Origin: an uncultured Eubacterium sp.
GTDB taxonomy: Bacteria > Bacillota > Clostridia > Oscillospirales > Acutalibacteraceae
Length of the DNA: 42,706 nucleotides
Direction of reading: 5' to 3'
Assembly: GCA_905233545.1 (NCBI GenBank)
Contig: CAJOEV010000011.1
Coordinates: forward strand, 1 to 42,706
A program made the translations under genes and the position numbers. The stretch's first letter is position 1. Each line of letters begins with the position of its first letter. Shown in pieces: positions 1,807 to 32,425 of the stretch. Under the pieces are notes generated by a model. That model was not told where the DNA came from. It saw only the letters and a list, made by a program, of their open reading frames with translations, and ran no database searches.

Positions 1807-1841
1807 AGTTTGGAGTTTGGAGGGTGGTGAGTGGAGTTTAG
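1807..1841 (+). repeat. Five-unit heptanucleotide array, locus 1
   Basis: Five contiguous 7-bp units in the register AGTTTGG. Units 1 and 2 are identical, unit 3 (AGGGTGG) and unit 4 (TGAGTGG) diverge, and unit 5 is AGTTTAG. It abuts the T-tract of the pduL terminator. The same five-by-seven layout occurs at 12733, 28555 and 32253 with other heptamers. Confidence 0.75.
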
Positions 1842-1870
1842 GGGCACAAGCGCCGATTAAAGTAAAAAAA

Positions 1871-1929
1871 CAACACCCTTGCAATGAGCAAAGGTGTTGA
1901 GAAATAACAAATTATCTCTTTGAGAACTG
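1871..1929 (-). repeat. Duplicate of the rpsI 3' end with terminator, copy A
   Basis: Positions 1906-1929 match the true rpsI end (2255-2278) at 23 of 24 bases and still encode Q-F-S-K-R-stop on the minus strand. Next to it a hairpin at 1871-1900 has the same design as the rpsI terminator at 2219-2243, including a C-A mismatch at the same step of the stem. The unit is thus a copy of gene end plus terminator, without the rest of the gene. Confidence 0.8.
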
Positions 1930-1974
1930 TCGAAGCGTTAAGAAAACAGTTCGGTGGACTGTTTTTAGCTTCGA
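1930..1974. repeat. Palindrome of the GTCC-GGT-GGAC hairpin type
   Basis: Nested inverted repeats: outer TCGAAGC (1930-1936) with GCTTCGA (1968-1974), inner AAAACAGT (1943-1950) with ACTGTTTT (1958-1965), loop TCGGTGG. Closely similar hairpins lie at 167-189 and 37437-37457. Confidence 0.7.
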
Positions 1975-2027
1975 CCGCAAGAGCTGTGCTCTGAGGACCC
2001 GCAGTGGAAGATGCGTTAAGAAAAAGA

Positions 2028-2081
2028 AAAACGCCTCCAAAAAGGAATCGTTTTGAAAAGCAATTATCTCTTTGAGAACTG
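2028..2081 (-). repeat. Duplicate of the rpsI 3' end, copy B
   Basis: Positions 2061-2081 again carry the Q-F-S-K-R-stop tail of rpsI in the minus direction. It is followed, in that direction, by a weaker hairpin with an A/T-rich stem (2028-2054). It lies about 150 bp from copy A and about 200 bp from the real gene end. Confidence 0.75.
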
Positions 2082-2191
2082 GGGAGCGCTTCGTCAAAAC
2101 ATCCTCCGTGATTGAAGCATTTTGCAATCAAAATGCTATGAATCACTTCGAATGTTTTTCCTCTCCCCAAAAAATCTGCGATTTTTCGGGG
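2081..2191. repeat. Long imperfect palindrome and adjoining hairpin
   Basis: Segments 2081-2086, 2096-2102, 2108-2113 and 2116-2124 pair in order with 2163-2168, 2152-2158, 2141-2146 and 2129-2137, giving an interrupted 88-nt foldback. A second hairpin at 2165-2191 (CCCC-AAAAATC arms, loop TGC) shares its base. No gene is seen here. It could be the remains of a small palindromic mobile element. Confidence 0.65.
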
Positions 2192-2201
2192 ACCCCGGTA
2201 A

Positions 2202-2214
2202 CGCAAGACGCGCA
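2202..2214 (+). repeat. Inverted copy of the rpsI coding tail
   Basis: These 13 bases are the exact reverse complement of 2282-2294 inside rpsI, so the gene end and its terminator are enclosed by an inverted repeat. Confidence 0.75.
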
Positions 2215-2218
2215 AAAA

Positions 2219-2243
2219 ACACCCCTGTATAATACAAGGGTGT
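2219..2243 (-). terminator. Terminator of rplM-rpsI
   Basis: The stem ACACCC/GGGTGT with inner TGTA/TACA lies 18 bp past the rpsI stop and is followed, on the minus strand, by a T-rich run (revcomp of 2214-2218). Confidence 0.75.
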
Positions 2244-2260
2244 AGTTGAGATAAAACAAA

Positions 2261-2659
2261 TTATCTTTTTGAGAACTGCGGTGCGCGTCTTGCGGCTTTG
2301 AGACCGTATTTCTTTCTTTCCTTCATTCTCGGGTCACGAGTGAGGAAGCCAGCCTTCTTGAGTGCTGGACGAAGGTTTTCGTCGTACTGAAGAAGAGCTC
2401 TTGAAAGACCGTGACGGATTGCGCCTGCCTGACCTGTTACGCCGCCGCCGTTTACACGGCAAACGATGTCAAACTTCTCAGCAGTATCTGTTAAAGCGAG
2501 AGGCTGACGAACGATGAGCTTGAGAGTTTCAAGTCCGAAATAATCGTCGATATCTCTGTCGTTGATTGTGATTTTACCTGTGCCTGCATAAACGCGAACA
2601 CGAGCAACAGATTCTTTTCTTCTGCCTGTTCCGTAGAAATAAGGATTTGATTCGTACAT
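2261..2659 (-). CDS. rpsI: 30S ribosomal protein S9
   Basis: A 132-residue ribosomal protein of the small subunit head. The [13 protein letters not shown] start, the [14 protein letters not shown] core and the basic C-terminal tail ending in SKR, which reaches the P-site tRNA, are all present. The length is normal. It follows rplM by 16 bp, the usual L13-S9 operon. The last codons are duplicated twice downstream (1906-1929, 2061-2081) and one 13-bp part is present inverted at 2202-2214. Known from streptococci: the rpsI 3' end is an integration site for tyrosine-recombinase elements, which may explain the copies here (inference). Confidence 0.97.
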
Positions 2660-2675
2660 TAGCTACATACCTCCC

Positions 2676-3104
2676 TTACATTTCCCAAGCTTCAGGCTTC
2701 TGAGCCTCGTGCTTGTGCTGAGCGTCTTTGTAAACCTTGCATCTTGTGAGCTGCTTTCTGCCGAGTGTTGTGTCGGGAATCATGCCCTTAACAGCAAGCT
2801 GCATAGCAAAATCGCTCTTTTCCTTCATAAGTGTTGAGTATTGAACCTCTTTAAGGTTACCGATGTAGCCTGTGTGGTGCTGATAGAACTTCTTTGTGAG
2901 CTTAGCACCGGTTAATACTGCCTTATCTGTGTTAATGATAATAACGAAATCACCGCAGTCTGTGTTGGGTGTGAAAATCGGCTTATGCTTTCCTCTGAGG
3001 AGAACAGCAGCTTCAGCAGCAACTCTTCCGAGCGGTTTGTCTGCTGCGTCGATAACATACCACTTGCGCTCGATTTCGTCAGCTTTTGGCATAAATGTTG
3101 ACAT
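2676..3104 (-). CDS. rplM: 50S ribosomal protein L13
   Basis: A 142-residue large-subunit protein. The KWYVIDAADKPLGRVA start, GKHKPIFTPN and the GMIPDTTLGR signature are clear. A GGAGGA ribosome site sits 7 nt before the ATG at 3104. It is first in the rplM-rpsI operon and is driven by the promoter at 3152-3180. The untranslated leader is only about 40 nt; it contains a short foldback but I do not see enough to name an L13 leader. Confidence 0.97.
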   Translation of the reverse strand: MSTFMPKADEIERKWYVIDAADKPLGRVAAEAAVLLRGKHKPIFTPNTDCGDFVIIINTDKAVLTGAKLTKKFYQHHTGYIGNLKEVQYSTLMKEKSDFAMQLAVKGMIPDTTLGRKQLTRCKVYKDAQHKHEAQKPEAWEM

Positions 3105-3151
3105 AATCGTTTCCTCCGAATTAATAATAGTAACTTTTAAGTTGCCTGCAT

Positions 3152-3180
3152 ATCATAGCAAAAGCGCAAAAAAATGTCAA
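3152..3180 (-). promoter_or_regulatory. Sigma-A promoter of rplM-rpsI
   Basis: On the minus strand a perfect TTGACA (3175-3180) is separated by 17 bp from TATGAT (3152-3157), with TG just before the -10. Transcription should start near 3145. Confidence 0.85.
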
Positions 3181-3275
3181 CACCTAAATTAAAATAATTT
3201 GGGTTATCTCGCTTTATCTCTGTTTTTCTCGATTAATCATATAAAAATCTCGTTTATAATTTATGAAAAACGTAT

Positions 3276-3299
3276 CGTCGGGGATGCCGATCCCTACAA
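3276..3299. repeat. 24-bp dispersed repeat, second copy
   Basis: Matches 340-363 at 20 of 24 bases and contains the self-complementary core GGGATGCCGATCCC. The rest of 3181-3400 is AT-rich with no gene; a possible TTGACA at 3375-3380 may be the -35 of the sigma operon, but its -10 is poor. Confidence 0.6.
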
Positions 3300-3424
3300 T
3301 TTTGTTCTTTTACTCTTTTGCAGGGGAGGGTTTCCGAGCTCTCCAGCAAATCAAAATACGAAACTAAAAAACTTTTGACATATTCTGCGATATCTGCGAC
3401 TATTTAATGAGGGAGGTGAATGCC

Positions 3425-3970
3425 GTGGCACGAAAAGAGGAAGCCGACAAATTGCTTCGCATGGCCTATGTTTCGTATTATGAAGCTTCATATTATTACT
3501 GCGTTGCAAGAACAAAGCACGCCAGGGGAAGCGAGGAGGACTCGGTTCAAAATGCATTTTTGGTTTACTATAAAAAGCTGCTTTCAGGTGAAAACATTAT
3601 AAATGTTAAAGCTTTTTTATACCGAACCTGCGAAAATATGTGCCGTAAGGCTGACACCAAGTTTTTAAGGGACGCAAAGCGAAGCGTTGATTTGGAAAAC
3701 GTAACGGATATTCCTGCAAAGGAAACGGACGTTTTTGCTTTGGAGCTTGATTATGATGCGCTAAAGGAAGAGCTGGTCGGAATGCTGAGTGAAGAGGAAC
3801 AAACTTTGTTCACGTTGAAATACGAGCAGAAAAAAACTCTTGAGGAAATCGCAAAACAGCTCGGCATTTCGCCAAACGCCGCAGCGCTTCGCACCTCACG
3901 CCTCAGGAAAAAGATAAAAACACTCATACCAATCACAATTGACAAATACAGGGAAGGGGGAATTCGATGA
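3425..3970 (+). CDS. ECF-type RNA polymerase sigma factor
   Basis: A 181-residue sigma-70 family regulator with region 2 (about 25-80, including the QNAFLVYYKKL helix) and region 4 (about 125-175, helix-turn-helix LEEIAKQLGISPNAAALR); regions 1 and 3 are absent, as in ECF factors. A GTG start at 3425 is chosen because GGGAGGTG lies 6 nt before it; the in-frame ATG at 3407 lies upstream of that ribosome site. The stop overlaps the next start (ATGA, 3967-3970), so the two are translationally coupled. It probably directs transcription of its own operon including the surface protein (inference). Many ECF factors of this kind in gut Firmicutes have no assigned signal. Confidence 0.88.
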   Translation: MARKEEADKLLRMAYVSYYEASYYYCVARTKHARGSEEDSVQNAFLVYYKKLLSGENIINVKAFLYRTCENMCRKADTKFLRDAKRSVDLENVTDIPAKETDVFALELDYDALKEELVGMLSEEEQTLFTLKYEQKKTLEEIAKQLGISPNAAALRTSRLRKKIKTLIPITIDKYREGGIR

Positions 3971-4614
3971 GCATAACAGTAAATGAAAAAACGCTTTTCG
4001 CAGTTCTGACTGAATCACAGGGCAAAAACGAAATGATTGCACTTCTCAATGAAATAATTGATGAAGAGCTTGAAAAAGAAGAAATGAACACGGCGCTTGT
4101 TGATGAATGTGTTCAGGCAATAATCGATTTGGAAAGCGAAGGTGACATCAAAGCGCTTTGCACATATCAGGAGCTTGTGCAGTATTGCCATTCGGAAGCT
4201 TTCAAGAAGAGAATACGCCTGAGACGTGCCGTTATTATTGCTGCAGCGGCGGCAATTCTTACAAGCGGGGCGCTTTCGGTATCACCTGCGCTCGCTGAGC
4301 AGGCAAGGAGCTTTATTGGTTCTGTAATAGCAAGCCTCGGTATTGCAGCCGAGGAATCGGATGAGAAAAACGGCGAAATTGTTTCAATCTATGCCGAGCC
4401 AATCGGAAGCATAAACTATACCGTAAAAAGCGAAGATGAGATAAACGCCGAAGCGTTCAGGATTTTTGCAGTTGATAAAGATAATAATGAAAAAGAAATA
4501 TCGGTTTCAAAATGCAAAACAACAATAAAACGTCCCGACGGCAGTCATATAATGATTATTTATTCTTACGAGGGCTGTGCGTGCTCGGTTATCTATAATC
4601 TGGAGGAAGTATAA
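3967..4614 (+). CDS. Single-pass membrane protein, probable anti-sigma factor
   Basis: A 215-residue protein with an acidic, helical cytoplasmic half (1-80), one transmembrane segment (about 88-110) preceded by the positive run KKRIRLRR, and an external part of about 100 residues. No zinc-binding HxxxCxxC anti-sigma motif is visible, so the call rests on position: it overlaps the ECF sigma gene by 4 bp and the following LRR gene by 1 bp (TAATG at 4612-4616). The external part holds three cysteines near its end. It could instead be a DUF4179-like sigma-linked sensor, whose architecture (short helical N-terminus, one TM, outer domain) it resembles. Confidence 0.65.
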   Translation: MSITVNEKTLFAVLTESQGKNEMIALLNEIIDEELEKEEMNTALVDECVQAIIDLESEGDIKALCTYQELVQYCHSEAFKKRIRLRRAVIIAAAAAILTSGALSVSPALAEQARSFIGSVIASLGIAAEESDEKNGEIVSIYAEPIGSINYTVKSEDEINAEAFRIFAVDKDNNEKEISVSKCKTTIKRPDGSHIMIIYSYEGCACSVIYNLEEV

Positions 4615-7600
4615 TGAAAAGAATTAATAAAATAGTATGCAGTATACTTGCGCTTGTTATATTTATTGCGCAGCTGCCGATTACGGCGCTTGCATATAAT
4701 GAAAACGTTCCTTCGTTCACTGCAGAGCAAAAAGATGTTGTTTCTCAGGACGGCAAGTGGAAATACGATATTGCACTTGATAAAAATGAAGAACCCCGCG
4801 TCTGGATTAAGGAGTATCTGGAAATTGCGCAAGCCGGAAAAGATTTTGTTTTTCCGGGGGTTCTTGACGGAATGAAGGTTCAGAGCGTTGATATGTACCC
4901 TTCTTCAAATTTGTTTAACATAAAAAAGAACACTAAAATTGTTTTTGAGGAAAACATTGAAATAATCAGCGGCGAATTTTTGCGCGCATCACAAAATCTG
5001 GAGGTTGTGCTTCCCTCAACTCTGTTGATGATAGACCAACGAGTTTTTGCGTCGTCGGTTAACCTTAAAATCAATTTCCCCGACAGTCTTTGCGCGATAG
5101 CGAAGGAAGCGTTTCAGTTTTCTTCTTTCAGTACGAATACGGACATTGTTTTGCCCGAAAGTCTGAAATATATTGGTAACGGTGCATTTGAAAAAACAAA
5201 TATAACCTCTGTTAAAATCGGAGCAAAGACGGATTTCAGTGATGCAAAGTTTTCACAGACTGCAGGAGTTTATTATACGGGTTCGGTTACATATCCATAC
5301 ACCCCGTTTATTAACTGCGGCAGTTTAACAAAAATTGAAATTGACGATAATAACCCGAATTTCAAAAATGATGACGGAATAATTTATACGGCAGATGATA
5401 AGGAATTGGTGTTTATTAATGAAAGCCCTGCGGATTATGCTATTCCCGAGAGCGTTGAATATATCTGCTCGGGTGTTTTTAACAACAAAAACTTTAACAG
5501 TCTTATTATTCCGTCTAACTTAAAAAAGTTTTACAGCGTTACATTCAGCAATACGAATATTGGAAAACTCAGTTTTGCCGAGGGTTTTGAAGACGACAGT
5601 TTTTCGGAACTCACTTTTAAAGATTGCACAATAGAGGAACTGACTATTCCGAAAAGCATAGCGCTTATTAATCACAATACTTTTAAAAACCACGGAATAA
5701 AAAAGTTATATTTTGAAGAGGGTTCGGCGCTTGCAGAAATCGGAGCATATGCCTTTAAAGGCAATAATTTTGAAACGCTTGATTTAACAAACTGCAGACG
5801 GTTAACGGTTGTGCAAACGGAGGCATTCAGCACCAACAAATCACTTTTATCGGTGGATATGACAGACGTTCCTCTGGAAGAATTTTCTTCAGGTATATTC
5901 TCCGGATGTTCTAAACTTAAGGATTTCAATATATCGAAATATACAAAAACAATTGGATACAATGCGTTTTCATGGGATACGGAGCTTGAAAATATTGATT
6001 TAAGCAATATAGTTAAATATGAAAACGGCGCTTTTGACAGATGCGATAAAGTTAATGTTTCAGATATCATTGTTTCAAACGGCACAACAGAAGACGGTTT
6101 TGAATACGTCGAGCTTGAAAATCACGTTTCTTTAATCGGCTACACGGGCAATTCCCTGTTTCTATCAATGCCTGATACAATAAACGGAAAGCCCGTAACC
6201 GATATCGTCTGGACGGCAGCAAAACTGAAAAGCAGCAAACTTCTTTACATAAAGTTTCCTTCATCCCTTGCCTTCATTTCCTCGGGAGCGTTTCAGTATA
6301 AGGATGTTCTCAAGGTAAGCGATTTCCCGAAAACGCTACGCTATATCGGCAAAGGTGCTTTTTCGGGAGGGAAACTTACAAGCGTTAAGTTGAACGAAGG
6401 ACTTGAATATGTTCTTTCAGGCGCGTTTGCGTCTTGCCCGATAATAAACCTTGAAATTCCTGACTCTGTCTGCTTCTATTTAGGAATGGGTTATGGTGTG
6501 GCAAACAGTATAACCTTTGGAAAAAATGTTCAAAATATTAAGCAAATACTTGAAAATGCAAGCGGGGACGGCAAATCAAAGAGCATTCAAATCAGTTTTG
6601 AAAACCCATACTACAGTTTTGAAGACGGCGTTTTGTATAACGGCGATAAAACTCATATCTATAAGTTTTATTCGTGTTATAATGCTGACGAGATAGCGGA
6701 TAATTATAAGATACCCGAAAGCGTAAAAACAATTGACAAAAGCGCGTTTTATCAATGTAACGTTTTGGGTGACTTAATTATTCCCGCAGGCGTTGAATTT
6801 ATTGGTGCGAACGCGTTTGAATCCTCAAGTATTACAAGCGCGCATTTTGCCGACGGGTTTAAAACCGAAAGACTGTATCGTACGTTTTTTGCATGCAAAT
6901 CGCTTCAAAATGTAACATTTGGTGACGTGGACATAAAAGTGCTTGCTGAAACTTATGTTGACAGCTCTATTAAAAACGTTGAAATTCCCGACAGTGTTGA
7001 AAGACTGTCCGCACCGTATATGATGACGGATTTATCATCTGTAACTGAACTGAATTTGCCGAAAAATCTTAAATACATTGGCGGTGCATTTGAAGGCACA
7101 AAAATCAGTATTACGGAGTTGACACTTCCCGAGGGGTTGAAGTCGGTCGGTCCTTATGCTTTTGCACAATGCAAGATGCTTAAAAGCATTGATTTTTCCA
7201 ACGTCGAGTTTTTGGAAAGAGCGGCTTTCCTCGGCTGTGATGCGCTTGAAAGCGTTGATTTAACGGGAATTACATATATAAAAGAGGAATATGACGGAAC
7301 CTTCAGCGATTGCCCGAACCTCAAAAAGATTACCTTTAACCGTGAGGACAGGGAACATGATATTGAAGATGAAGCAAACAAGGGCAACACCGCAGTTGAA
7401 ACCGTTGTTATAGGAAACGGAATCAACAGCGTTAAATCAAAGGCGTTTGCCGATTGCAAAAATCTTAAAACTGCAGTTATATCGCCTTCGGTAAACAGCA
7501 TTGCCGACGACGCTTTTGAAAATTGCGGCAAGCTGACTATCGTATGTACCGAAAATTCAACTGCGCATGAATATGCTCAGCGTAACAGCGTTAACTATAA

Positions 7601-8228
7601 AACCTTCAAGATTCTTCCCGTTCCCGACCAGACGTACACTGGCAAGGAAATCAAGCCCGCGCTCCATATTGTTGCAGGCGAAAAAGAGCTTGAAGCAGGC
7701 AGGGAATACACCGCTTCATATGCAAACAATATCAGGGTCGGAACAGCAAGAGCCACCGCTGTGGGACTCGGCGACTATAGCATTTTTGCCGCAACGGTGA
7801 ATTTCAACATAGTTGCACCGCCGCATACTCATTCATTCAAAACAACAACCGTTAAGCCTACCTATGAAAAGGCGGGATATACGCTTCACACCTGTTCCTG
7901 CGGATACAGCTATAAAAGCGACTTCAAAGCAAAACTGACTGTGCCTGCAACAAGCATTAAAAAGCTGACAACGGGCAAAAAATCAGTAACCGTCAGCTTT
8001 AATAAGGTTAAGAATGTCAGCGGTTATCAGCTCCAATTCAGCACAAGCAAAAATTTTGATAAAAACAAAAAGACCGTTACTCTTTCAAATCCGAAAACGG
8101 CAAAAAGGACGGTCAAAAATCTCAAATCAAAGAAAAAATATTATGTTCGGATAAGAACATATAAAAAGGTCGGAAAGAAAATATATTATTCCGCCTGGAG
8201 CAAGGCAAAGACTGTGAAAACGAAATAG
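4614..8228 (+). CDS. Secreted BspA-type leucine-rich-repeat protein with FnIII tail
   Basis: A 1204-residue exported protein. A signal peptide occupies residues 1-27 (cleavage after ALA). From about 60 to 1000 it consists of BspA-type (LRR_5) repeats, recognisable by recurring IGxxAFxxxxxLxxxxIPxSV-like blocks, partly degenerate. After these come a beta-rich segment (about 1005-1065) and a HTHSF...CSCGY motif from 1071, seen at the end of many gut Firmicutes surface proteins. A fibronectin III-like domain (about 1115-1204) forms the basic C-terminus. No LPXTG anchor or terminal transmembrane helix is present. It is the last gene of the ECF sigma operon. A role in adhesion or host or glycan contact is typical of the family but not shown here. 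Confidence 0.85.
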   Translation: MKRINKIVCSILALVIFIAQLPITALAYNENVPSFTAEQKDVVSQDGKWKYDIALDKNEEPRVWIKEYLEIAQAGKDFVFPGVLDGMKVQSVDMYPSSNLFNIKKNTKIVFEENIEIISGEFLRASQNLEVVLPSTLLMIDQRVFASSVNLKINFPDSLCAIAKEAFQFSSFSTNTDIVLPESLKYIGNGAFEKTNITSVKIGAKTDFSDAKFSQTAGVYYTGSVTYPYTPFINCGSLTKIEIDDNNPNFKNDDGIIYTADDKELVFINESPADYAIPESVEYICSGVFNNKNFNSLIIPSNLKKFYSVTFSNTNIGKLSFAEGFEDDSFSELTFKDCTIEELTIPKSIALINHNTFKNHGIKKLYFEEGSALAEIGAYAFKGNNFETLDLTNCRRLTVVQTEAFSTNKSLLSVDMTDVPLEEFSSGIFSGCSKLKDFNISKYTKTIGYNAFSWDTELENIDLSNIVKYENGAFDRCDKVNVSDIIVSNGTTEDGFEYVELENHVSLIGYTGNSLFLSMPDTINGKPVTDIVWTAAKLKSSKLLYIKFPSSLAFISSGAFQYKDVLKVSDFPKTLRYIGKGAFSGGKLTSVKLNEGLEYVLSGAFASCPIINLEIPDSVCFYLGMGYGVANSITFGKNVQNIKQILENASGDGKSKSIQISFENPYYSFEDGVLYNGDKTHIYKFYSCYNADEIADNYKIPESVKTIDKSAFYQCNVLGDLIIPAGVEFIGANAFESSSITSAHFADGFKTERLYRTFFACKSLQNVTFGDVDIKVLAETYVDSSIKNVEIPDSVERLSAPYMMTDLSSVTELNLPKNLKYIGGAFEGTKISITELTLPEGLKSVGPYAFAQCKMLKSIDFSNVEFLERAAFLGCDALESVDLTGITYIKEEYDGTFSDCPNLKKITFNREDREHDIEDEANKGNTAVETVVIGNGINSVKSKAFADCKNLKTAVISPSVNSIADDAFENCGKLTIVCTENSTAHEYAQRNSVNYKTFKILPVPDQTYTGKEIKPALHIVAGEKELEAGREYTASYANNIRVGTARATAVGLGDYSIFAATVNFNIVAPPHTHSFKTTTVKPTYEKAGYTLHTCSCGYSYKSDFKAKLTVPATSIKKLTTGKKSVTVSFNKVKNVSGYQLQFSTSKNFDKNKKTVTLSNPKTAKRTVKNLKSKKKYYVRIRTYKKVGKKIYYSAWSKAKTVKTK

Positions 8229-8231
8229 AGC

Positions 8232-8272: not shown

Positions 8273-8322
8273 GTTCGATTGGGGACTGTCCACAATAGTT
8301 GAACAGATGCATAAAAAGCAAA

Positions 8323-12732: not shown

Positions 12733-12767
12733 AGTTGCGGGTTCCGAGCCTCGAGTTCCGAGTTTTT
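12733..12767 (-). repeat. Five-unit heptanucleotide array, locus 2
   Basis: Contiguous 7-bp units on the plus strand: AGTTGCG, GGTTCCG, AGCCTCG, AGTTCCG, AGTTTTT. The third and fifth units are the divergent ones. It ends six bases before the mfd start codon, in the 5' untranslated part of mfd. The register AGTT is shared with locus 1. Confidence 0.75.
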
Positions 12768-12778
12768 GGTATACGACC

Positions 12779-12831
12779 AACGGTTCCCAAAATTTGTTAT
12801 CGGCTTGGAGCGCCGACAAATTTTGACCGTT
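12779..12831. repeat. Interrupted palindrome upstream of mfd
   Basis: AACGGT, CAAAATTTGT and CGGC on the left pair with GCCG, ACAAATTTTG and ACCGTT on the right, giving a 20-bp stem with small bulges and a loop of about 7 bases. In mfd mRNA this would be a strong 5' hairpin. The neighbouring 12866-12885 is the second copy of the 20-bp repeat at 321-340. Confidence 0.7.
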
Positions 12832-12904
12832 CGGCAGTTCTTTTTGTTCGCTTCATCTGCCACTGGCAGCGCTCACAAACGAACCTCGCTGCGCTCGGTC
12901 AATT

Positions 12905-25361: not shown

Positions 25362-26549
25362 ATGGGACTTATTAAAGCAGGTGTTGGCGCACTTGGAGGA
25401 ACAATGGCGGACCAGTGGAAAGAGTTCTTTTACTGTGAAGCAATTGACAAAGAAGTAATCGTGACAAAGGGACAGAAGAGGACATCCTCTCGTTCATCAA
25501 ACACAAAGGGAAATGATAACATCATTTCAAACGGCTCGGGTATTGCCGTTGCCGACGGACAGTGTATGGTTATTGTTGAGCAGGGAAGAATTGTTGACGT
25601 TTGTGCAGAACCCGGCGAATACACATACGATAAGTCAACTGAGCCCAGCCTTTTTACAGGTAAGCTCAGCACATCTATTAAAGAAACATTTAAAACAATC
25701 GGAAAGCGTTTCACCTTTGGCGGAGACACCGCAAAGGACCAGAGAGTTTATTATTTCAACACAAAAGAGCTTGTTGACAATAAATTCGGAACACAGAATC
25801 CGATTCCGTTCAGGGTTGTTGATTCAAAAATCGGCCTTGATATAGATACTTCGGTACGCTGCAGCGGTATTTATTCATATAAGGTTGCAGACCCGATTTT
25901 GTTCTACACAAATGTTTGCGGAAATGTTTCCGATGAATACAGAAGAGAGGAAATTGATTCCCAGCTGAAAACCGAATTCATAAGCGCGCTTCAGCCTGCA
26001 TTTGCAATGCTTTCAGACCTTGAAATGCGCCCGAATCAGATTGCCGCTCATACAACTGAGCTTGAAAATGCAATGAACAAGGCGCTCAGCGAAAAATGGG
26101 GCAGACTCAGAGGTCTTGAGGTTGTTTCAATTGCGCTTAATCCGATAACGCTTCCCGAAGCAGACCAGGAACTTATCAAGCAGTTCCAGAAGGGCGCAGC
26201 TATGCGCGACCCGAATATGGCAGGCGCACAGATGGCAGGCGCAACGGCAGACGCAATGCGTGCTGCTGCAGCAAACGAAGGCGGAGCAATGAACGGCTTT
26301 GTCGGAATGGGAATGGCAATGAACACAGGCGGCGCCCAGGCAGCAAATCTTTTTGCAATGGGTCAGCAGCAACAGCAGCAGGCTCCCGCTCCCGCAGGAG
26401 GATGGAAATGCGAATGCGGAGCAGAAAACAGCGGTAATTTCTGTACAAACTGCGGAAAACCGAAGCCTGTAAGTGACAGATGGTTTTGCAGTGAATGCGG
26501 AACTGAAAACCATGGAAAATTCTGCACCAACTGCGGAAAGCCCAGATAA
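25362..26549 (+). CDS. SPFH-domain protein with C-terminal zinc ribbons (YdjI-like)
   Basis: A 395-residue protein of the SPFH/virion-core family. An N-terminal segment and SPFH domain (about 20-270) are followed by an Ala/Gly/Met-rich linker, a Gln run (about 335-341), and two zinc ribbons, each CxCG or CxxCG then CTNCGKP. In Bacillus subtilis the homologue YdjI sits with YdjG and YdjH in the pspA operon and is brought to the membrane by them to dock PspA under cell-envelope stress. Here the same trio follows in the order I-G-H. AAGGAG precedes the ATG at 25362; an earlier frame start lacks a site. No pspA gene is adjacent. Confidence 0.87.
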   Translation: MGLIKAGVGALGGTMADQWKEFFYCEAIDKEVIVTKGQKRTSSRSSNTKGNDNIISNGSGIAVADGQCMVIVEQGRIVDVCAEPGEYTYDKSTEPSLFTGKLSTSIKETFKTIGKRFTFGGDTAKDQRVYYFNTKELVDNKFGTQNPIPFRVVDSKIGLDIDTSVRCSGIYSYKVADPILFYTNVCGNVSDEYRREEIDSQLKTEFISALQPAFAMLSDLEMRPNQIAAHTTELENAMNKALSEKWGRLRGLEVVSIALNPITLPEADQELIKQFQKGAAMRDPNMAGAQMAGATADAMRAAAANEGGAMNGFVGMGMAMNTGGAQAANLFAMGQQQQQQAPAPAGGWKCECGAENSGNFCTNCGKPKPVSDRWFCSECGTENHGKFCTNCGKPR

Positions 26550-26587
26550 CAGCGCAAGTTTTTAGGTATTAGTGAAAAGAGGATAAT

Positions 26588-27673
26588 ATGTCTGAGATAT
26601 TTGAATATAAATGTCCTAACTGCGGAGGTTCTGTTGAATTTGATTCGGGAACCCAGAAGATGAAATGTCCGTATTGTGACAGCGAATTCGATGTTGAAGC
26701 GCTAAAAAATATGGACAGCCGTCTTGATGAGGAACAGCCCGACGAGTTTAAGTGGGACAATGCAGACGGTACACAGTGGGATGAGGGCGAAGAGGACAAA
26801 ATGAGCATTTTTGTCTGCAAATCCTGCGGCGGTGAAATAGTCTGTGACGAAAACACAGCCGCAACCTCGTGTCCCTACTGTGATAATCCCGTTGTTATGT
26901 CGGGAAGACTTTCGGGAACGCTTAAACCCGAATTCGTCATTCCGTTTAAGGTTGACAAAAACAGGGCAAAAGAAACGCTCAAAAGCTATATCGGCAAAAA
27001 GAAATTCGCGCCGAAGCTTTTTGCAAACGAAAACAAGCTTGAAGAGATTAAGGGAATCTATGTTCCGTTCTGGCTCTTTGATTCCGATGCTGACGCAGCG
27101 GTTTCTTTTAAGGCAACAAGAACAACCACCTGGTCTGATAAGAAGTACAGATATACCAAAACCGACCACTTTGATGTTTTCAGAAAGGGAAATATGAGCT
27201 TTGCCAATATTCCCGTTGACGGCTCGTCAAAAATGGCGGACGACCTGATGGAATCAATCGAGCCCTTCGATTTCGGAGAAGCGGTTGATTTCCAGACGGC
27301 GTATCTTTCGGGATATCTTGCTGACAAATATGATGTTTCAATGGAAGACAGCATCGACAGAGCAAATGCAAGAATCAAATCAAGCTGTGAGGAAACGCTC
27401 CGGAACACTGTTCACGGATATGAAAGCGTTATGCTGAACAATTCCTCTGTTCAGATTACAAAAGGCTGTGCAAAATATGCACTCTATCCCGTCTGGCTTA
27501 TTCACACAAAGTATAAAGATGAACAGCTAACCTTTGCAATGAACGGACAGAGCGGAAAGCTTGTCGGAAATATTCCCGTAAGTATGCCCAAGCTCATAGC
27601 ACTGTTTGCGGGCATAACCGCACTCGGTACCCCGATAATCTATATTGTCGGAAGACTTTTCGGAATAATATAG
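26588..27673 (+). CDS. Zinc-ribbon membrane protein (YdjG-like)
   Basis: A 361-residue protein with two N-terminal zinc ribbons (CPNC...CPYC near residues 9-29 and CKSC...CPYC near 78-98), a central strand-rich domain of about 200 residues, and one C-terminal transmembrane helix (about 333-357). This matches YdjG of Bacillus, a membrane partner for the SPFH protein YdjI. GAGG lies before the ATG, 38 bp after the SPFH gene. It is annotated elsewhere as TFIIB-type zinc ribbon protein; the resemblance is only in the metal site, and a role in transcription is unlikely for a membrane protein. Confidence 0.82.
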   Translation: MSEIFEYKCPNCGGSVEFDSGTQKMKCPYCDSEFDVEALKNMDSRLDEEQPDEFKWDNADGTQWDEGEEDKMSIFVCKSCGGEIVCDENTAATSCPYCDNPVVMSGRLSGTLKPEFVIPFKVDKNRAKETLKSYIGKKKFAPKLFANENKLEEIKGIYVPFWLFDSDADAAVSFKATRTTTWSDKKYRYTKTDHFDVFRKGNMSFANIPVDGSSKMADDLMESIEPFDFGEAVDFQTAYLSGYLADKYDVSMEDSIDRANARIKSSCEETLRNTVHGYESVMLNNSSVQITKGCAKYALYPVWLIHTKYKDEQLTFAMNGQSGKLVGNIPVSMPKLIALFAGITALGTPIIYIVGRLFGII

Positions 27674-27687
27674 GGGGGGTGCATATA

Positions 27688-28536
27688 ATGAAAAAGATAT
27701 TAATAACATTATTAACCGCTGCGCTCCTTCTTGCACTTCCGATAAACGCTCTTGCGGATGACACCGACCGAGTTGTTGATTTGGGCAATATGCTCAGCGA
27801 AGAGCAGGAATCGGCACTTGAGGATAAGCTTAACGGAATTGCCGATAAATACTCCTTTGATGCTGTTGCACTGACCGTTGGAAACTATGTTGTAGACAGT
27901 GAAACCGCAGCAGTTAGTTTTGCCGATGACTATTATGATGAAAACGGCTATAGCAGTGACGGCTGTCTGCTTCTTATAACCGAGGACCACTATTGGCATA
28001 TTTCAACAAAGGGATATGGCATAATCGCAATAACCGATTATGGCGTTAAAGTTCTTGAACAGGAAGTAATAAAGCCATATTTCGGCAATGAGGACTGGAA
28101 TGGCGGATTCAATGCATATGCCGATTTTGTTGAAGAATTTGTGTCACAGGCAAAAAGCGGCAGCGCGTATGATATTGAAAATACATACACAAACACAGAA
28201 GGTCACACATATACGGAAAAAGAAATAAACGGAAAGGGCGGAGCTCTTTCGGAATTCAGCGGTGGAGCTGCCTTGATTTCACTTGTTGTTGCAGCAATTA
28301 TCGCTGCGGTAATCGCAATAATTGTTAAGGGCAACTACAAACCCGTTCGATTCAAGGCAAGCGCTGCGGACTATCTGGTTGACGGAAGTCTGCATCTTAC
28401 CGATGAATATGACCGATTCCTTTTCAGTAATGTGACAAAAACAAAAATCGAAAGCGATTCTTCTTCAAAAGGAGGAAGCTCAACGCATACTTCGTCAAGC
28501 GGTTCAACGCACGGCGGCGGAGGAGGAAGATTCTAG
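27688..28536 (+). CDS. TPM-domain exported membrane protein (YdjH-like)
   Basis: A 282-residue protein with a signal peptide (1-21, after ALA), a TPM domain (about 25-150; VVDLGNMLSEEQESALEDKL start, GYGI core), one transmembrane helix (about 193-214) and a cytoplasmic tail that ends in a Ser/Thr/Gly-rich run and GGGGG-R-F, as in many TPM proteins. It matches YdjH, third member of the YdjGHI set. The family was once named for a phosphatase-like activity in a plant member, but a chaperone or partner role is as likely. Start at 27688 follows a G-rich ribosome site. The last codons form a 12-bp hairpin with the sequence after the stop. Confidence 0.84.
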   Translation: MKKILITLLTAALLLALPINALADDTDRVVDLGNMLSEEQESALEDKLNGIADKYSFDAVALTVGNYVVDSETAAVSFADDYYDENGYSSDGCLLLITEDHYWHISTKGYGIIAITDYGVKVLEQEVIKPYFGNEDWNGGFNAYADFVEEFVSQAKSGSAYDIENTYTNTEGHTYTEKEINGKGGALSEFSGGAALISLVVAAIIAAVIAIIVKGNYKPVRFKASAADYLVDGSLHLTDEYDRFLFSNVTKTKIESDSSSKGGSSTHTSSSGSTHGGGGGRF

Positions 28537-28554
28537 CCGAAAGGCTAGAATCTT
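28527..28554 (+). terminator. Hairpin over the stop of the TPM gene
   Basis: A perfect 12-bp stem AAGATTCTAGCC with loop GAAA includes the stop codon and is followed by a weak T run that is already the first heptad of the next array. Confidence 0.65.
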
Positions 28555-28635
28555 ACTTTTCACTCTTCTCACTTCACTTTTCACTAAAACGCAGATGAGG
28601 GAAGAGAGAAAAGAGAAGAACGAAGAGAGAAAAGA
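28555..28635. repeat. Inverted pair of heptanucleotide arrays, locus 3
   Basis: Left array: five units ACTTTTC, ACTCTTC, TCACTTC, ACTTTTC, ACTAAAA (28555-28589). After 11 bp the right array has five units GAAGAGA, GAAAAGA, GAAGAAC, GAAGAGA, GAAAAGA (28601-28635), with one more related unit (GATGAGG) just before. The right array is the unit-by-unit inverted partner of the left, so the whole can fold into a pyrimidine/purine stem. It starts at the base of the hairpin that ends the TPM gene and lies 38 bp before the four-helix-bundle gene. Confidence 0.8.
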
Positions 28636-28672
28636 ATCGGGTGCTTCGCACAATTATTAAGAGGTAATCGTT

Positions 28673-29038
28673 ATGGATAGTCCGTTACTTGAAAAATCAC
28701 TTGATTTTGCATCTAAAATTGTTTTGTTTTATGAAGAATACAGAAACAATAAAAGAGATACAACAATCCCGAAACAACTGCTTCGCAGCGCAACTTCCAT
28801 TGGCGCAAACATTAATGAGGCGGTATTTGGTAGCAGTAAAGCAGATTTTATTGCAAAAATGCACATTGCATTAAAGGAAACAAGCGAAAGCATATACTGG
28901 CTAACTCTTTTAAGCAGAACTCAATTATTACAATATGACTATGAAAACCTGATAAGTCTTGCAGAGGAGAAAAAAAATGCTTATTTCGTCAATAAATACG
29001 GCGAAGAAAACACAAAAATAATAGTTTACATAGTGTAA
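28673..29038 (+). CDS. Four-helix-bundle protein (S23 / IVP-like family)
   Basis: A 121-residue all-helical protein of the TIGR02436-type family found in many phyla and first seen inside 23S rRNA intervening sequences; Avd, the accessory protein of diversity-generating retroelements, has the same fold. Signatures are PKQLLRSATSIGANINEA and the helix FIAKMHIALKETSESIYWL. It probably forms a basic-cored pentamer that binds nucleic acid (known for relatives). No reverse transcriptase is seen in the window. The gene follows GAGG and is preceded by heptad arrays and a tiny GTGC-TTC-GCAC hairpin (28641-28651). Such genes move often, which may be the case here. Confidence 0.85.
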   Translation: MDSPLLEKSLDFASKIVLFYEEYRNNKRDTTIPKQLLRSATSIGANINEAVFGSSKADFIAKMHIALKETSESIYWLTLLSRTQLLQYDYENLISLAEEKKNAYFVNKYGEENTKIIVYIV

Positions 29039-29051
29039 TGGTGGTGAACTT

Positions 29052-29261
29052 ATGAAAAGAGAAAAAATGATCAGAATAGTTGTGTTTTGTCTTGGAATTG
29101 CATTTGGATTTTTTGGAATTGTAACTTGTATAAAATATTGGGTAAGCGATGCAACAATATTTCCAAAAGGAGTTGACCCGATTTCGTTTATTGGCTATAT
29201 TGCTATTATTGGTATGTTCATAGTTTTGATAATTAAAGAAATAAAGAATAAAAAGGAATAG
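29052..29261 (+). CDS. Small two-helix membrane protein
   Basis: A 69-residue protein with two transmembrane segments (about 7-28 and 42-62) and charged ends (MKREK, KEIKNKKE). GGTGGTGAAC lies before the ATG. It sits 13 bp after the four-helix-bundle gene and before a terminator, so the two are probably one transcript. No family is recognised. Confidence 0.6.
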   Translation: MKREKMIRIVVFCLGIAFGFFGIVTCIKYWVSDATIFPKGVDPISFIGYIAIIGMFIVLIIKEIKNKKE

Positions 29262-29284
29262 ACATATTAACATTAATAAACGAT

Positions 29285-29321
29285 AAAGCGAAACAGGGAA
29301 CTCCTTTGTTTCGCTTTTTTT
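29285..29321 (+). terminator. Terminator after the small membrane protein
   Basis: AAAGCGAAAC/GTTTCGCTTT stem followed by seven T. Confidence 0.85.
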
Positions 29322-29330
29322 AAAAAGATC

Positions 29331-29386
29331 TTGACAAATGTAAATTATGATGTATAATGTAATTGAAATAAATTGTACGCAATTTA
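29331..29386 (+). promoter_or_regulatory. Promoter with OhrR-like operator for the gpx operon
   Basis: TTGACA (29331-29336), 16 bp, TATAAT (29353-29358). Directly after it, at the expected transcription start, lies a perfect 7-4-7 inverted repeat TAAATTG-TACG-CAATTTA (29369-29386). The Bacillus OhrR operator, as I recall it, is centred on AAATTGTATACAATTT; the match here is close. A MarR/OhrR-type repressor sensing organic peroxide is therefore the likely regulator (inference); its gene is not in the window. Confidence 0.75.
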
Positions 29387-29416
29387 ATTTTACAAAATTT
29401 ATGGAGGGATTAAAAA

Positions 29417-29881
29417 ATGAATGTACTTGATTTCAGCGTATTAAACCAAAAGGGAGAAGAGGTTTCTCTTTCTCAGTTTGGCGGAAAGGTTCTTCTTATT
29501 GTAAACACAGCAACTCACTGCGGTTTCACCCCTCAGTACGAGGGGCTTGAAGCAATGTATAAAAAGTATAAGGACCAGGGATTTGAAATTCTTGACTTCC
29601 CCTGCAATCAGTTTGCTTTTCAGGCAAGAGAGGATGACGAGGGTATCAACAAGGTTTGCTCCTTAAGATTCGGAACAACCTTCCCCAGATTCAAGAAGAT
29701 TAAGGTTAACGGCAAGGACGCAATTCCGCTTTACAAATATCTTGTTGAACAGACCGGCGGAAAGAAAATCGGCTGGAATTTCACAAAATTCCTTATCGAC
29801 AGAGACGGAAATATTGTTGAGCGTTTCGGCTCAAAGGTAACTCCCGAAGAAATCGAAGCTAAGGTTGAGGCAGCATTATAA
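29417..29881 (+). CDS. Glutathione peroxidase family protein (thiol peroxidase, Cys type)
   Basis: A 154-residue peroxidase reducing organic and hydrogen peroxides. C35 in NTATHCGFTPQY is the peroxidatic residue (Cys, not selenocysteine); FPCNQF supplies the Gln-containing second motif with C63, C81 in KVCSLRF is placed as resolving Cys, and WNFTKFLIDRDG gives the Trp and Asn of the catalytic tetrad. Enzymes of this kind use thioredoxin, not glutathione, and the operon fits: the stop overlaps the next start (TAATG), then come a thioredoxin reductase-like protein and thioredoxin. GGAGGG precedes the ATG. Confidence 0.92.
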   Translation: MNVLDFSVLNQKGEEVSLSQFGGKVLLIVNTATHCGFTPQYEGLEAMYKKYKDQGFEILDFPCNQFAFQAREDDEGINKVCSLRFGTTFPRFKKIKVNGKDAIPLYKYLVEQTGGKKIGWNFTKFLIDRDGNIVERFGSKVTPEEIEAKVEAAL

Positions 29882-30738
29882 TGTATGATATTATTATAAT
29901 CGGCGCAGGTCCTGCAGGGATTTCGGCGTCGCTCTATGCAAAAAGGGCAAATAAAAGCGTTCTTGTTATTTATTACGGTGAAAGCCAGCTTGAAAAAGCG
30001 CATTTAATCGATAATTACTACGGCTTTGATGGCGGTATTTCGGGAACAGACTTATATAGCAGCGGTATTAATCAGGCAAAAACACTCGGTGTTGATGTTA
30101 AAAACGAAGAGGTTTTGCATATTTCAATGAATGCTGATATGAATTATGAGATTAAAACCGCAGATAATGAATATGAGGGCAGGGCGCTGATTCTTGCAAC
30201 GGGCAATAAAAAGCTCAGACCTAACATCAAAGGTGCTGCGGAGTTTGAGGCAAAGGGAATAAGCTACTGTGCAATCTGTGACGGATTTTTCTTCAGAAAC
30301 AAAACCGTTGCCGTGCTCGGAAACGGTGATTATGCACTGAGCGAAGCAGCAGACCTTGAAAATATCGCCCAAAAGGTGTATATTTTAACTAACGGTGAGC
30401 CTGCGCCCCAAACCGATAAATACGAAATTATAACAAAAAAGCTTTCTGAAATAAAAGGCGATATGAAGGTTCGCTCGGTTGAATTCGAAGACGGACAGGA
30501 GCTTGAGATTGACGGTTTGTTTGTTGCACTCGGCGTTGCCGGCGGAGCGGATTTTGCAAAAAAACTCGGCATTGCGCTCGAAGGCGACAGCATTAAAACA
30601 AAAGACGATATGTCAACAAATGTTCCCGGTGTTTTCTCGTGCGGAAACATAACGGGCGGATTGCTTCAGGTCTGCAAGGCGGTTTATGAAGGTGCCGAGG
30701 CAGGTCTTTCAGCAGTAAAGTATGTTAAAGGAGAATAA
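29881..30738 (+). CDS. Thioredoxin reductase-like flavoprotein
   Basis: A 285-residue two-domain FAD enzyme. GAGPAG (8-13) binds FAD and the redox pair is C130-A-I-C133 followed by Asp, as in TrxB. The second nucleotide site is altered: GNGDYA (147-152) stands where NADPH-using enzymes have GGGxSA, and the HRRxxxR motif for the 2'-phosphate is missing (VYILTNGEPAP instead). This points to a ferredoxin-linked or otherwise NADPH-independent reductase of the type described in Clostridium, rather than a standard TrxB (inference). It lies between gpx and trxA, overlapping gpx by one base and 2 bp from trxA, so it is the likely electron source for both. Confidence 0.85.
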   Translation: MYDIIIIGAGPAGISASLYAKRANKSVLVIYYGESQLEKAHLIDNYYGFDGGISGTDLYSSGINQAKTLGVDVKNEEVLHISMNADMNYEIKTADNEYEGRALILATGNKKLRPNIKGAAEFEAKGISYCAICDGFFFRNKTVAVLGNGDYALSEAADLENIAQKVYILTNGEPAPQTDKYEIITKKLSEIKGDMKVRSVEFEDGQELEIDGLFVALGVAGGADFAKKLGIALEGDSIKTKDDMSTNVPGVFSCGNITGGLLQVCKAVYEGAEAGLSAVKYVKGE

Positions 30739-30740
30739 AA

Positions 30741-31046
30741 ATGGTTAAGGTAATTGATGATTCAAATTTTGACAGCGAGGTTTTGGCAAGCGGAAAAACC
30801 TGCTTGATTGATTTCTTCGCTACATGGTGCGGACCCTGCAAGATTATGTCACCCATCGTTGACGAGATTGCAGACGAGATGACGGACATAACTGTCGGCA
30901 AGGTTGATGTTGACGAAGCACCCGAGCTTGCAATGCAGTTTGGAGTTATGAGCATTCCGACAATCATCGTTTTCAAAAACGGAGAGATTGCTGAAACCTT
31001 CATCGGTGTAACCGATAAAGAGAACATTGTTAACGCATTAAAATAA
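30741..31046 (+). CDS. trxA: Thioredoxin
   Basis: A 101-residue dithiol carrier. The active site FFATWCGPCK holds C30 and C33, the cis-proline is in SIPTIIVFK, and the length is normal. It is last in the peroxide-defence operon and presumably passes electrons from the flavoprotein to the Gpx-type peroxidase. AAGGAG inside the end of the previous gene is its ribosome site. A terminator follows. Confidence 0.93.
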   Translation: MVKVIDDSNFDSEVLASGKTCLIDFFATWCGPCKIMSPIVDEIADEMTDITVGKVDVDEAPELAMQFGVMSIPTIIVFKNGEIAETFIGVTDKENIVNALK

Positions 31047-31054
31047 ATAAAATT

Positions 31055-31078
31055 CCCCAACGCACTGTTGGGGTTTTT
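31055..31078 (+). terminator. Terminator of the gpx operon
   Basis: CCCCAAC/GTTGGGG stem, loop GCACT, then five T. Confidence 0.9.
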
Positions 31079-31092
31079 ATATTGGTGAGTAT

Positions 31093-32256
31093 ATGAAAAA
31101 GATTAAAATAATACCTTTGATTCTGGCGCTTATTCTTCTTGTCTGCTCATGTTCAAAAAGCGTTCCTGCTTCAAAAATAAATAAGCAGGATTGGAGCACA
31201 AACTACACCTTTGTTTTCTGTCACGGGCTTTCGGGCTGGGGGAGCTACGACAAGCAGAATAAATACCTGAAATACTGGGGAATGAGAACGGGCGATTTGC
31301 TTGAATATCTGGGCGAGCAGGGATTTAATTGCGTGAGCGCTTCTGTTGCTCCTCACGGCAGCGCGTGGGACAGGGCGTGTGAACTGTATGCTCAGCTGAC
31401 GGGCAGCGTTGTTGACTACGGAAAGGAACACAGCGAGCGCTGTAATCACGAACGCTTCGGGACCGATTTCAGCGAAAATCCCCTCATTGAAAAGTGGGAC
31501 AGCGAAAACAAAATCAACCTTCTGGGACATTCTTTCGGCGGCGTAACTGTTCGATTGATGAGTGAGCTTATGGCAAACGGAAGCGAAGCGGAAATAAAAG
31601 CAACCGACTCTGACGATATTTCGCCTCTTTTTACGGGCGGAAAAGCCGACTTCATAAACAGTATAACGGCGCTTGCTTCCCCTCATAACGGAACAACCGC
31701 ATATGATATTGACCACGAGGAAGAAGCAGGAAGCAAATATCAGAATTGGCTCAGCGGTATTATGGCAAACGCAAACAATCCCGAACAGGACGGCAGAGCT
31801 GAATATGACTTTGCTAACTACGATATGTTTATTGATAATGCGCTTGAGCTCAACAGTAAAATTGAAACACTTAAGAATGTTTACTATTTCTCTGTTCCCT
31901 GCAATTCAACAATAAAACAGAAAGACGGAACATATCTTCCCGACGAAAGCAAAACCGAAGCGATGTTTTGCAGAAGTTCAATTCTTATGGGAAAACTCAA
32001 AGAAAAAACACCGAACGGTTTTGTTGTTGATGAAAAATGGTTTATGAACGACGGACTTGTTAACACCGTTTCCGCATATGCGCCTTTTGATGCACCTCAA
32101 AAGGAATATGATAAAAACAATGTTGAAAAAGGAATCTGGAACATTATGCCGATTTACGACGGCGACCATATGTCGCTTCAAGGCGGTTTCACAATAAAAA
32201 ATGATGTTAAAGAGTTTTATTTAAAGCATCTTGATATGATAAACAGATTAAATTAG
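31093..32256 (+). CDS. Lipase/esterase lipoprotein (staphylococcal-Geobacillus lipase type)
   Basis: A 387-residue alpha/beta hydrolase. The N-terminus is a lipoprotein-like signal with Cys20 after a VCS lipobox variant. FCHGLSGWG forms the oxyanion region and VVDYGKEHSERCNHERFG matches the family I.5 insertion that precedes the nucleophile. The triad is S147 (GHSFGG), D320 (NDGLVNTVS) and H359 (DGDHMSLQG). Such enzymes hydrolyse acylglycerols outside the cell. GGTGAG precedes the ATG, 15 bp after the gpx operon terminator, and some readthrough could couple it. The stop codon lies within the first unit of a heptad array. Confidence 0.87.
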   Translation: MKKIKIIPLILALILLVCSCSKSVPASKINKQDWSTNYTFVFCHGLSGWGSYDKQNKYLKYWGMRTGDLLEYLGEQGFNCVSASVAPHGSAWDRACELYAQLTGSVVDYGKEHSERCNHERFGTDFSENPLIEKWDSENKINLLGHSFGGVTVRLMSELMANGSEAEIKATDSDDISPLFTGGKADFINSITALASPHNGTTAYDIDHEEEAGSKYQNWLSGIMANANNPEQDGRAEYDFANYDMFIDNALELNSKIETLKNVYYFSVPCNSTIKQKDGTYLPDESKTEAMFCRSSILMGKLKEKTPNGFVVDEKWFMNDGLVNTVSAYAPFDAPQKEYDKNNVEKGIWNIMPIYDGDHMSLQGGFTIKNDVKEFYLKHLDMINRLN

Positions 32257-32425
32257 GTGTTAGGTGTTAGGTATTAGGTGTTAGGCGTATCCCCTCATCC
32301 GTCTGCCTGTCGGCAGCCACCTTCCCCCCCAGGGGGAAGGCTTGATAGGTTTGATTGATTATAATTCGGATATTGCGTATGGCGATTATATTCCTAAAAC
32401 CTAACCCCTAAAAACTCAAACCTGA
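32253..32425. mobile_element. MITE-like element with terminal heptad arrays, locus 4
   Basis: The left end (32253-32287) is five 7-bp units, four of them TTAGGTG or one base different, the last TTAGGCG. The right end (32391-32425) is five inverted units: TTCCTAA, AACCTAA, CCCCTAA, AAACTCA, AACCTGA. The core of about 100 bp holds two GC-rich hairpins (about 32303-32316 and 32320-32340) and codes for nothing. The layout of inverted ends, a structured core and no gene is that of a miniature element. From memory the core resembles a sequence repeated in many gut Clostridia; this was not checked. It touches the stop codons of the genes on both sides. Confidence 0.72.

Follow-up and report, generated by a model that had tools for sequence, protein, structure and literature searches.

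An exchangeable dinucleotide in the heptamer arms of a dispersed palindromic element from an uncultured Eubacterium sp.

We analyzed a 42,706-base stretch of DNA from an uncultured Eubacterium sp. (assembly GCA_905233545.1, contig CAJOEV010000011.1), which is a whole contig (G000:C11 in our numbering) of a draft genome of 2.23 Mb with 97.6% completeness and which we refer to as the window. It carries tandem arrays of 7-bp units whose word changes from site to site. We found that these arrays form the arms of a palindromic element, approximately 116 bp long and dispersed in the genome, and that the changing heptamers are one word, A-R-T-K-N-N-G, with an exchangeable dinucleotide at letters 5 and 6. 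We tentatively favor, at somewhat short of an even chance, the explanation that the element is non-autonomous and that its arms are read by a DNA-binding protein.

Anatomy and dispersal of the element

Each arm is a 31-bp site made up of four A-R-T-K-N-N-G units and a closing ART. In a full element, the arm is followed by a hairpin-like module such as TTTCGGGTCGCTTCGCTCC, an AT-rich centre resembling ATTATAAT, a second module, and an inverted arm, with a hairpin/AT-rich core of approximately 54 bp lying between the facing arms; one-armed half elements are also present. The location is intergenic, mostly just 3' of gene ends. Comparison of a 124-base copy with its own genome gave 54 match rows, some of which represent one place on both strands, and 11 other places matched over at least 100 bases with 72-89% identity and with the register to the core kept. 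Arms were collected in two ways. Searching 877 kb of the own genome and four relatives for the frame (four consecutive A..T...G, closed by ART) gave 145 raw arms, which were reduced to 131 once incoherent and double hits had been removed, and a core-anchored set (42 anchors) was gathered by the core alone, with no choice of frame letters and no coherence filter. The closing ART is found in 39/42 core-anchored arms, and all three frame letters (1, 3 and 7) are kept in unit 1 of 117/131 frame arms but in the preceding 7 bases of only 7/131, indicating that an apparent five units are four units plus ART. Thus, where the initial annotation had reported exactly five 7-bp units per site, the fixed array stands and the count does not, each array being four units and a 3-base ART-like triplet, and its view that the arrays are not copies of one sequence gives way to one grammar with dispersed copies in one register.

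Frame arms that lie no more than 140 bases apart are convergent in 26/29 cases and tandem in 3, with none divergent, and the gap is 46-66 bases in 22/26 convergent pairs. Among arm pairs 140-3000 bases apart, 8 are convergent, 11 divergent and 10 tandem; this is no excess, so no enclosed-gene pattern is seen at these distances.

Period scans set the arrays apart from chance. At a cut-off of at least 70% self-match over 28 comparisons, the window holds 5 period-7 places, where 60 local dinucleotide shuffles average 0.07; for periods 5 and 6, 3 places each were found. For the own genome, 438,624 bases were scanned at a cut-off of 18/21 or better, comprising the window and 20 stretches, 8 of which had been picked for repeat hits. 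Period 7 gave 37 arrays and each other period from 4 to 15 gave 0-2, the split being 9 vs 0-2 in the 12 unselected stretches (240 kb), 1 vs 0 in the window, and 27 vs 0-2 in the selected stretches. We observed the same preference in a replication set of five other congeners (377 kb; the G036 stretches were picked for AATTAAG hits), with 40 arrays at period 7, none of them in G015, and 0-3 at periods 5, 6 and 8-11. Likewise, 80 loci of named relatives found through Mfd (1.45 Mb) hold 23 period-7 arrays in 12 loci, other periods giving 0-2, and the first 36 of these loci, mostly the nearer ones, hold 0 at that cut-off. Ranked by Mfd, the nearest relatives with a name are metagenome-assembled genomes from rumen and gut that are titled Oscillospiraceae, Eubacterium or Clostridia, the top Mfd identity among the matches listed being 88% (Oscillospiraceae bacterium SIG609, L136). 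The frame search of the 80 loci found 19 arms in 9/80, with 0 in the reversed control. A chance origin of the arrays is rejected by the window shuffles, the period comparisons and the congener replication. At a looser cut-off, 54/60 arrays lie mostly outside open reading frames (ORFs), in DNA of which ORFs of at least 100 aa make up 89.8%, and the unit number rounds to 4 or 5 in 91/109 arrays from the own genome and four relatives. The fixed period, near-fixed copy number and changing word of the initial annotation are thereby supported, and the comparisons that it had proposed, a period scan of relatives for a preferred unit number and a scan of shuffled sequence, both came out in its favor.

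The four arrays and two inverted partners that it had reported were recovered at their positions, and the window features are as follows.

1807..1837, plus strand: arm AGTTTGG AGTTTGG AGGGTGG TGAGTGG + AGT, with units 3 and 4 odd, immediately behind the T-run of a terminator; its core side is 1838-1858
12733..12763, plus strand: arm AGTTGCG GGTTCCG AGCCTCG AGTTCCG + AGT, between pth and mfd
12764..12904, no strand given: flank of the 12733 arm on its core side, holding further palindromic sequence and a half-core, CCTCGCTGCGCTCGGTCAATT, that extends to the pth stop; second arm absent
28527..28554, plus strand: terminator-like hairpin overlapping the stop codon of a TPM-domain gene; core side of the 28555 arm
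28555..28585, minus strand: arm AGTGAAA AGTGAAG TGAGAAG AGTGAAA + AGT, 18 bases after a stop
28605..28635, plus strand: degenerate arm AGAGAAA AGAGAAG AACGAAG AGAGAAA + AGA; core side ATCGGGTGCTTCGCACAATTATTA
32258..32288, plus strand: arm TGTTAGG TGTTAGG TATTAGG TGTTAGG + CGT, one base past the stop of a Lip_C-domain gene
32289..32389, no strand given: core between the 32258 and 32390 arms, a CCTTCCCCC...GGGGGAAGG palindrome with AT-rich stretches
32390..32420, minus strand: inverted arm of 32258, TTTGAGT TTTTAGG GGTTAGG TTTTAGG + AAT

The window words AGTTTGG, AGTTCCG, AGTGAAA (the minus strand of ACTTTTC) and TGTTAGG are variants of A-R-T-K-N-N-G, the last being a rotation of TTAGGTG with T for A at letter 1 and hence without ART. 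By eye, unit 3 is odd in 6/6 window arms, in keeping with the diverged middle unit of the initial annotation, and another unit is also odd in some. The gene positions agree as well: the arrays at 1807, 28555 and 32253 adjoin stops, the TTAGG at 32253 overlapping the stop codon and the 1807 arm lying 36 bases beyond its stop and behind a terminator, and the 12733 array lying 6 bases upstream of the probable mfd start. The 12733 array has only 16/28 self-match, below the cut-off alone, and is backed by a same-class arm in L136 and G038; the remaining relatives compared with L136 showed none of this class there. At the 1807 site, G038 has a shorter, different arm. The 32258/32390 pair is convergent, and TTAGGTGTTAGGTGTTAGG, a 19-mer of the 32258 arm, has 32 matches in the genome, with 0 in the reversed control; the AGTTTGG 19-mer has 0 and the AGTTCCG 19-mer has 1. 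Rfam at gathering score found only a tRNA in the window, and a promoter scan of 28300-33000 gave 11 sites compared with 9.0 in shuffles.

Agreement of letters within arms

For each letter, we scored the identity within an arm and the identity to the equivalent unit of other arms. In the 131 frame arms, these scores are.96/.35 for letter 6 and.83/.56 for letter 5. Letter 7 agrees no better within arms than between them (.80/.81), and for letters 2 and 4 the agreement within arms is modestly higher (.70/.50 and.68/.54). For the own genome alone (75 arms, no orthologues), letters 6, 5, 7, 2 and 4 score.96/.41,.83/.50,.77/.78,.72/.50 and.67/.50, and in the core-anchored arms (39/42) letters 5 and 6 score.89/.52 and.91/.33. 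The other congeners (43 arms) give.83/.42 and.83/.48 for letters 5 and 6, no excess for letter 7 (.75/.76) or letter 2 (.74/.74), and.67/.61 for letter 4. Letters 5-6 are identical across all four units in 89/131 arms, compared with 2.5 when units are shuffled among arms; the corresponding values for the congeners are 25/43 and 2.8. Letter 2 is A or G in 510/524 units and letter 4 is T or G in 509/524.

In the explanation that we favor, each arm would be a row of four binding sites, every 7 bp taking a single subunit or dimer. The shared frame would consist of letters 1, 3 and 7, letters 2 (purine) and 4 (keto) would be tolerant contacts, and letters 5-6 would confer specificity. In the major groove, A and G have N7 in common and G and T have a keto group in common, as would suit tolerant protein contacts at letters 2 and 4. 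Different elements would answer to readers of different specificity, so that a change of reader would require a concerted change in every unit of an arm and, as a rule, in both arms. The reader would be oligomeric, its likeliest role being mobilisation or the bridging of two arms. Since letters 2 and 4 are often flipped and letters 5-6 are equal in all units, the equality looks maintained by selection for something that reads every unit alike. The ribbon-helix-helix (RHH) ParB protein of pSM19035, of which one dimer binds per heptad and which is fully active only on four or more contiguous heptads (PMC9499535), is a precedent for protein rows at a 7-bp pitch, and we take the arms as four-site rows on that basis.

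The main competing process is copying: the arrays could be STRR-type (short tandemly repeated repetitive) heptamer repeats that arise by polymerase slippage and are homogenised by slippage or by gene conversion between dispersed copies. We consider this unlikely. Heptamers are over-represented in many bacteria, for which the slippage idea has been cited (PMC4692102), and ectopic exchange would explain mosaics, in which a single site shows independent changes of arm, core and core orientation. The repertoire of letter 5-6 classes is also genome-dependent, class AC occurring in 0/75 own arms and 20/56 arms of relatives, and G036 has more five-unit arms. However, slippage should leave length tails, and apart from a looser distribution in G036 the arrays are concentrated at four or five units. 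Moreover, homogenising copying should equalise all seven letters, whereas the excess is absent at letter 7, small at letters 2 and 4, and large at letters 5-6, an unevenness that favors recognition over copying. Unit-specific marks persist against homogenisation as well: of the 59 arms with a single unit odd at letter 2, 37 have it at unit 3 (chi-square P 3e-10, uncorrected for shared descent), and in all five classes that have such arms unit 3 is the one most often odd. The same dinucleotide four times over is predicted by a reader and not by copying, and thus points to the former.

The two arms of one element belong to the same 5-6 class in 20/26 elements, compared with a shuffled mean of 6.6. 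Such matching would also be expected if the element acted as a nucleic-acid structure, either a long RNA hairpin for 3'-end protection and bidirectional termination or a DNA cruciform. For all 10 of the 10 elements given to RNA folding, the predicted fold surpassed every one of 200 shuffles (z -3.7 to -8.5), and in the window the 28555 arm pairs with the 28605 arm in the predicted fold (z -5.0). The median distance between an array and a gene 3' end is 14 bases (n=46), and arrays occur in 11/39 convergent, 23/122 co-directional and 3/43 divergent intergenic regions. Pairing, however, requires unit-by-unit complementarity and not one dinucleotide in all four units, the T/G flips at letter 4 break pairs, and there are one-armed sites as well as 6/26 full elements whose arms differ in class. 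We regard this explanation as fairly unlikely.

The initial annotation had suggested templated synthesis or repair at nicked gene ends, which in its explicit form would be heptamer synthesis by a reverse transcriptase or telomerase-like enzyme. The period is constant, the unit number is near-constant and the word changes, and many arms begin at stop codons or T-runs, as such a process might produce. Against it, a reverse transcriptase (PF00078) was found in 1/5 genomes with arrays and was not found in the genome of the window, whose completeness is given above, and dispersed copies share core and register, which indicates descent. In addition, letters 5-6 are locked and letters 2, 4 and 7 are not. 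Already disfavored, this proposal is now very improbable.

Turnover at orthologous sites and distribution among relatives

Comparison of orthologous sites, which the initial annotation had also proposed, revealed array gain, loss and heptamer change in relatives. At the 32253 site, where the flanking genes are both conserved in the nearest relatives and 30/60 congeners have the gene, AGTGCAT (short), AATGCAA or CGTGGCT arrays replace TTAGGTG. By eye, arms are retained in relatives at mfd-pth and L028:1273, sites are empty at L018:5193, L015:17772 and L028:16193, still other sites hold different classes or different palindromes, and at L015:16608 the core is inverted in G002. The clearest change is at L028:16869, where the own genome, G051, G049 and G002 align without gaps across the arm and the copy number is kept. 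Every unit carries AC in the three relatives and AA in the own genome, letters 2 and 4 vary between units and between species, and the core is common to the own genome and G051.

A loose search for (AATTAAG)3 in 80 congeners gave matches in 40 and at least 10 matches in 12; its reversed control is not independent, because the reversed word is the same cycle. In 18 other Bacillota genomes, scanned over 20 kb each, 0 arrays were found, and a phylum-wide feature was thus not seen at this depth. A single 36-base pattern gave 0 matches against viral_contigs. Three loci of named Clostridia (L177, L171 and L162) hold arrays of AGTGGAC, AGTCAAC, AATTCCG and CTAACAG, some with C rather than G at letter 7, and a long AGTAAGT array of about nine units in one relative (L152:17321-17385) indicates that the unit number is not always four elsewhere. 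Gene ends of relatives (e.g., L098, L102, L187) carry other palindrome families, such as CCTTCCCCTTGAGGGGAAGG with GCGGTGGATGAGGTG and GGGGACG...CGTCCCC, which replace heptamer elements at orthologous sites or sit within them.

Given the dispersal, we also considered REPIN-like elements mobilised by RAYT (Y1, HUH) transposases, which we judge improbable. The inverted hairpin pairs are of REPIN size, RAYT-like genes have 8 matches at 7 places in the own genome and are found in 25/60 congeners, and one RAYT gene sits between inverted TTAGGTG-type arrays; two further RAYT genes of the own genome (L256, L257) show, by eye, adjoining core-like halves but no scored array. However, G038 is array-rich yet without a match to this RAYT, only 3/38 RAYT loci have a scored array at 400 bases or less, RAYT is present in 7/11 array-rich congeners vs 18/49 others (P 0.17), and no GTAG tag was seen by reading at the arms. 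As owner of the arms, RAYT is thus not supported by the tests of locus proximity or congener distribution. The RAYT-like genes include L204:1615-2115 and L205:1522-2049 (G000 C21 and C24), and the own-genome matches are 53-87% identical to the query copy. Two RAYT-like genes contain an inverted repeat, TTGTAGGGAGCGGCGACC...GGTCGCCGCTCCCTACAA, that is read in frame. A GTAG-type REPIN or REP (TTGTAGGGGAGGCTCTCCCGAGCCTCCC...) occurs in the own genome, separate from the arms, at L204 about 3555-3640 and L018 about 5290-5360.

Several observations weigh against reading of the arms by a protein. The reversed-sequence control of the raw frame search gave 55 hits vs 145, a level due in part to words such as AATTAAG, which fit the frame backwards, and the 131- and 43-arm sets were picked by frame letters 1, 3 and 7 and a coherence filter. 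The 6/26 elements with arms of differing class count here too, and the 28555/28605 pair is back to back rather than convergent and has degenerate frame letters. In the replication set, the odd-unit mark is weaker (unit 3 in 7/15, unit 2 in 6/15) and hence less secure, and a fifth unit is commoner (7/43 arms). An all-unit class switch in place is clear at L028:16869 alone. Among 26 elements we observed no target-site duplication, a mark of miniature inverted-repeat transposable elements (MITEs), the mean direct match being 0.58 vs 0.61 in shuffles. Because the element copies have diverged, their movement may lie far in the past, and ectopic recombination is another way in which they could spread. 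Neither a reader nor a mobilising enzyme was identified, RHH genes not having been searched. The letter-by-letter result separates polymerase slippage from recognition and argues for recognition, and exact predictions follow from the pattern for letters 5-6, the four units and the two arms.

Relation to known heptamer repeats and inverted elements

Small dispersed repeats in cyanobacteria were reportedly described by Elhai et al. in 2008. Heptameric repeats and convergent pairs are an already known kind of repeat. A literature search of titles and abstract openings among the matches listed, with subscription papers outside its scope, named no such element, and in the literature surveyed, seen in part, we found no earlier description of the code-like letter pattern, the element anatomy or the concerted class difference.

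Several systems resemble the present one in part. TAACTGA repeats occur in Beggiatoaceae, Cyanobacteria and Bacteroidetes (MacGregor 2015, PMC4679880), and their minus strand, AGTTATC, fits A-R-T-K-N-N; that system differs in having one word, mostly just before start codons, with one indirect pair, and elsewhere up to 43 copies. The parS site of pSM19035, bound by the RHH protein ParB/Omega, likewise consists of contiguous non-palindromic 7-bp sites (PMC9499535), to which the protein binding that we propose here would correspond. It differs in serving plasmid partition, with 7-10 repeats in mixed orientations and one consensus, WATCACW. REPINs, REPtrons and TIRtrons with RAYT share short, dispersed inverted hairpin pairs, mostly behind genes, and some RAYT genes are flanked by terminal inverted repeats (TIRs) unrelated to REPs (PMC3733652). 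The excerpts of that source describe no tandem heptamer arms, however, and RAYT is not tied to the arms here.

The closest likeness is to the heptamers GGGAATC of Xanthomonas and GGGGA(C/T)T of Nostoc (Rehm et al. 2015, PMC4692102). Heptamer over-representation in bacteria has been on record for years with no agreed cause, and a functional role is, according to this paper, still to be elucidated. In Xanthomonas, four units are preferred, 89-93% are intergenic, convergent site pairs number 70 in Xcc and 75 in Xac, and a heterogeneous form, GGGANTN, occurs. The present arrays share with these repeats the 7-bp tandem units, mostly four, and the intergenic and dispersed location, and they share with Xanthomonas the convergent neighboring sites. 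Rotated, GGGANTN becomes A-N-T-N-G-G-G, which is the present frame with letters 2 and 4 alike variable. A-R-T is found on one strand of the Nostoc, Beggiatoaceae and H. pylori words and of two WATCACW variants; random heptamers hold A-R-T in 38% of cases, and TTAGGTG does not, so this likeness is a lead only. The Xanthomonas and Nostoc repeats are described as one G-rich word per genome, read as a G-quadruplex, with up to 26 units, and the preference for four is linked there to G-quadruplexes. The present arrays are unlike them in that AT-rich words dominate, there are several classes per genome, the core is defined, and the arm length is near-fixed. By reading, AATTAAG, AATTACG and AATTGAG are without the G-tracts needed for G-quadruplexes, and the four units of such AT-rich arms are therefore not explained by G-quadruplexes. 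It is possible, if doubtful, that the heptamer repeats of Clostridia, Xanthomonas and Nostoc, and perhaps Beggiatoaceae, are one kind of site, A-x-T-x-N-N-z, with four units facing four, in which N-N would be the address code of an oligomeric protein family with exchangeable specificity and all eight copies would be rewritten together.

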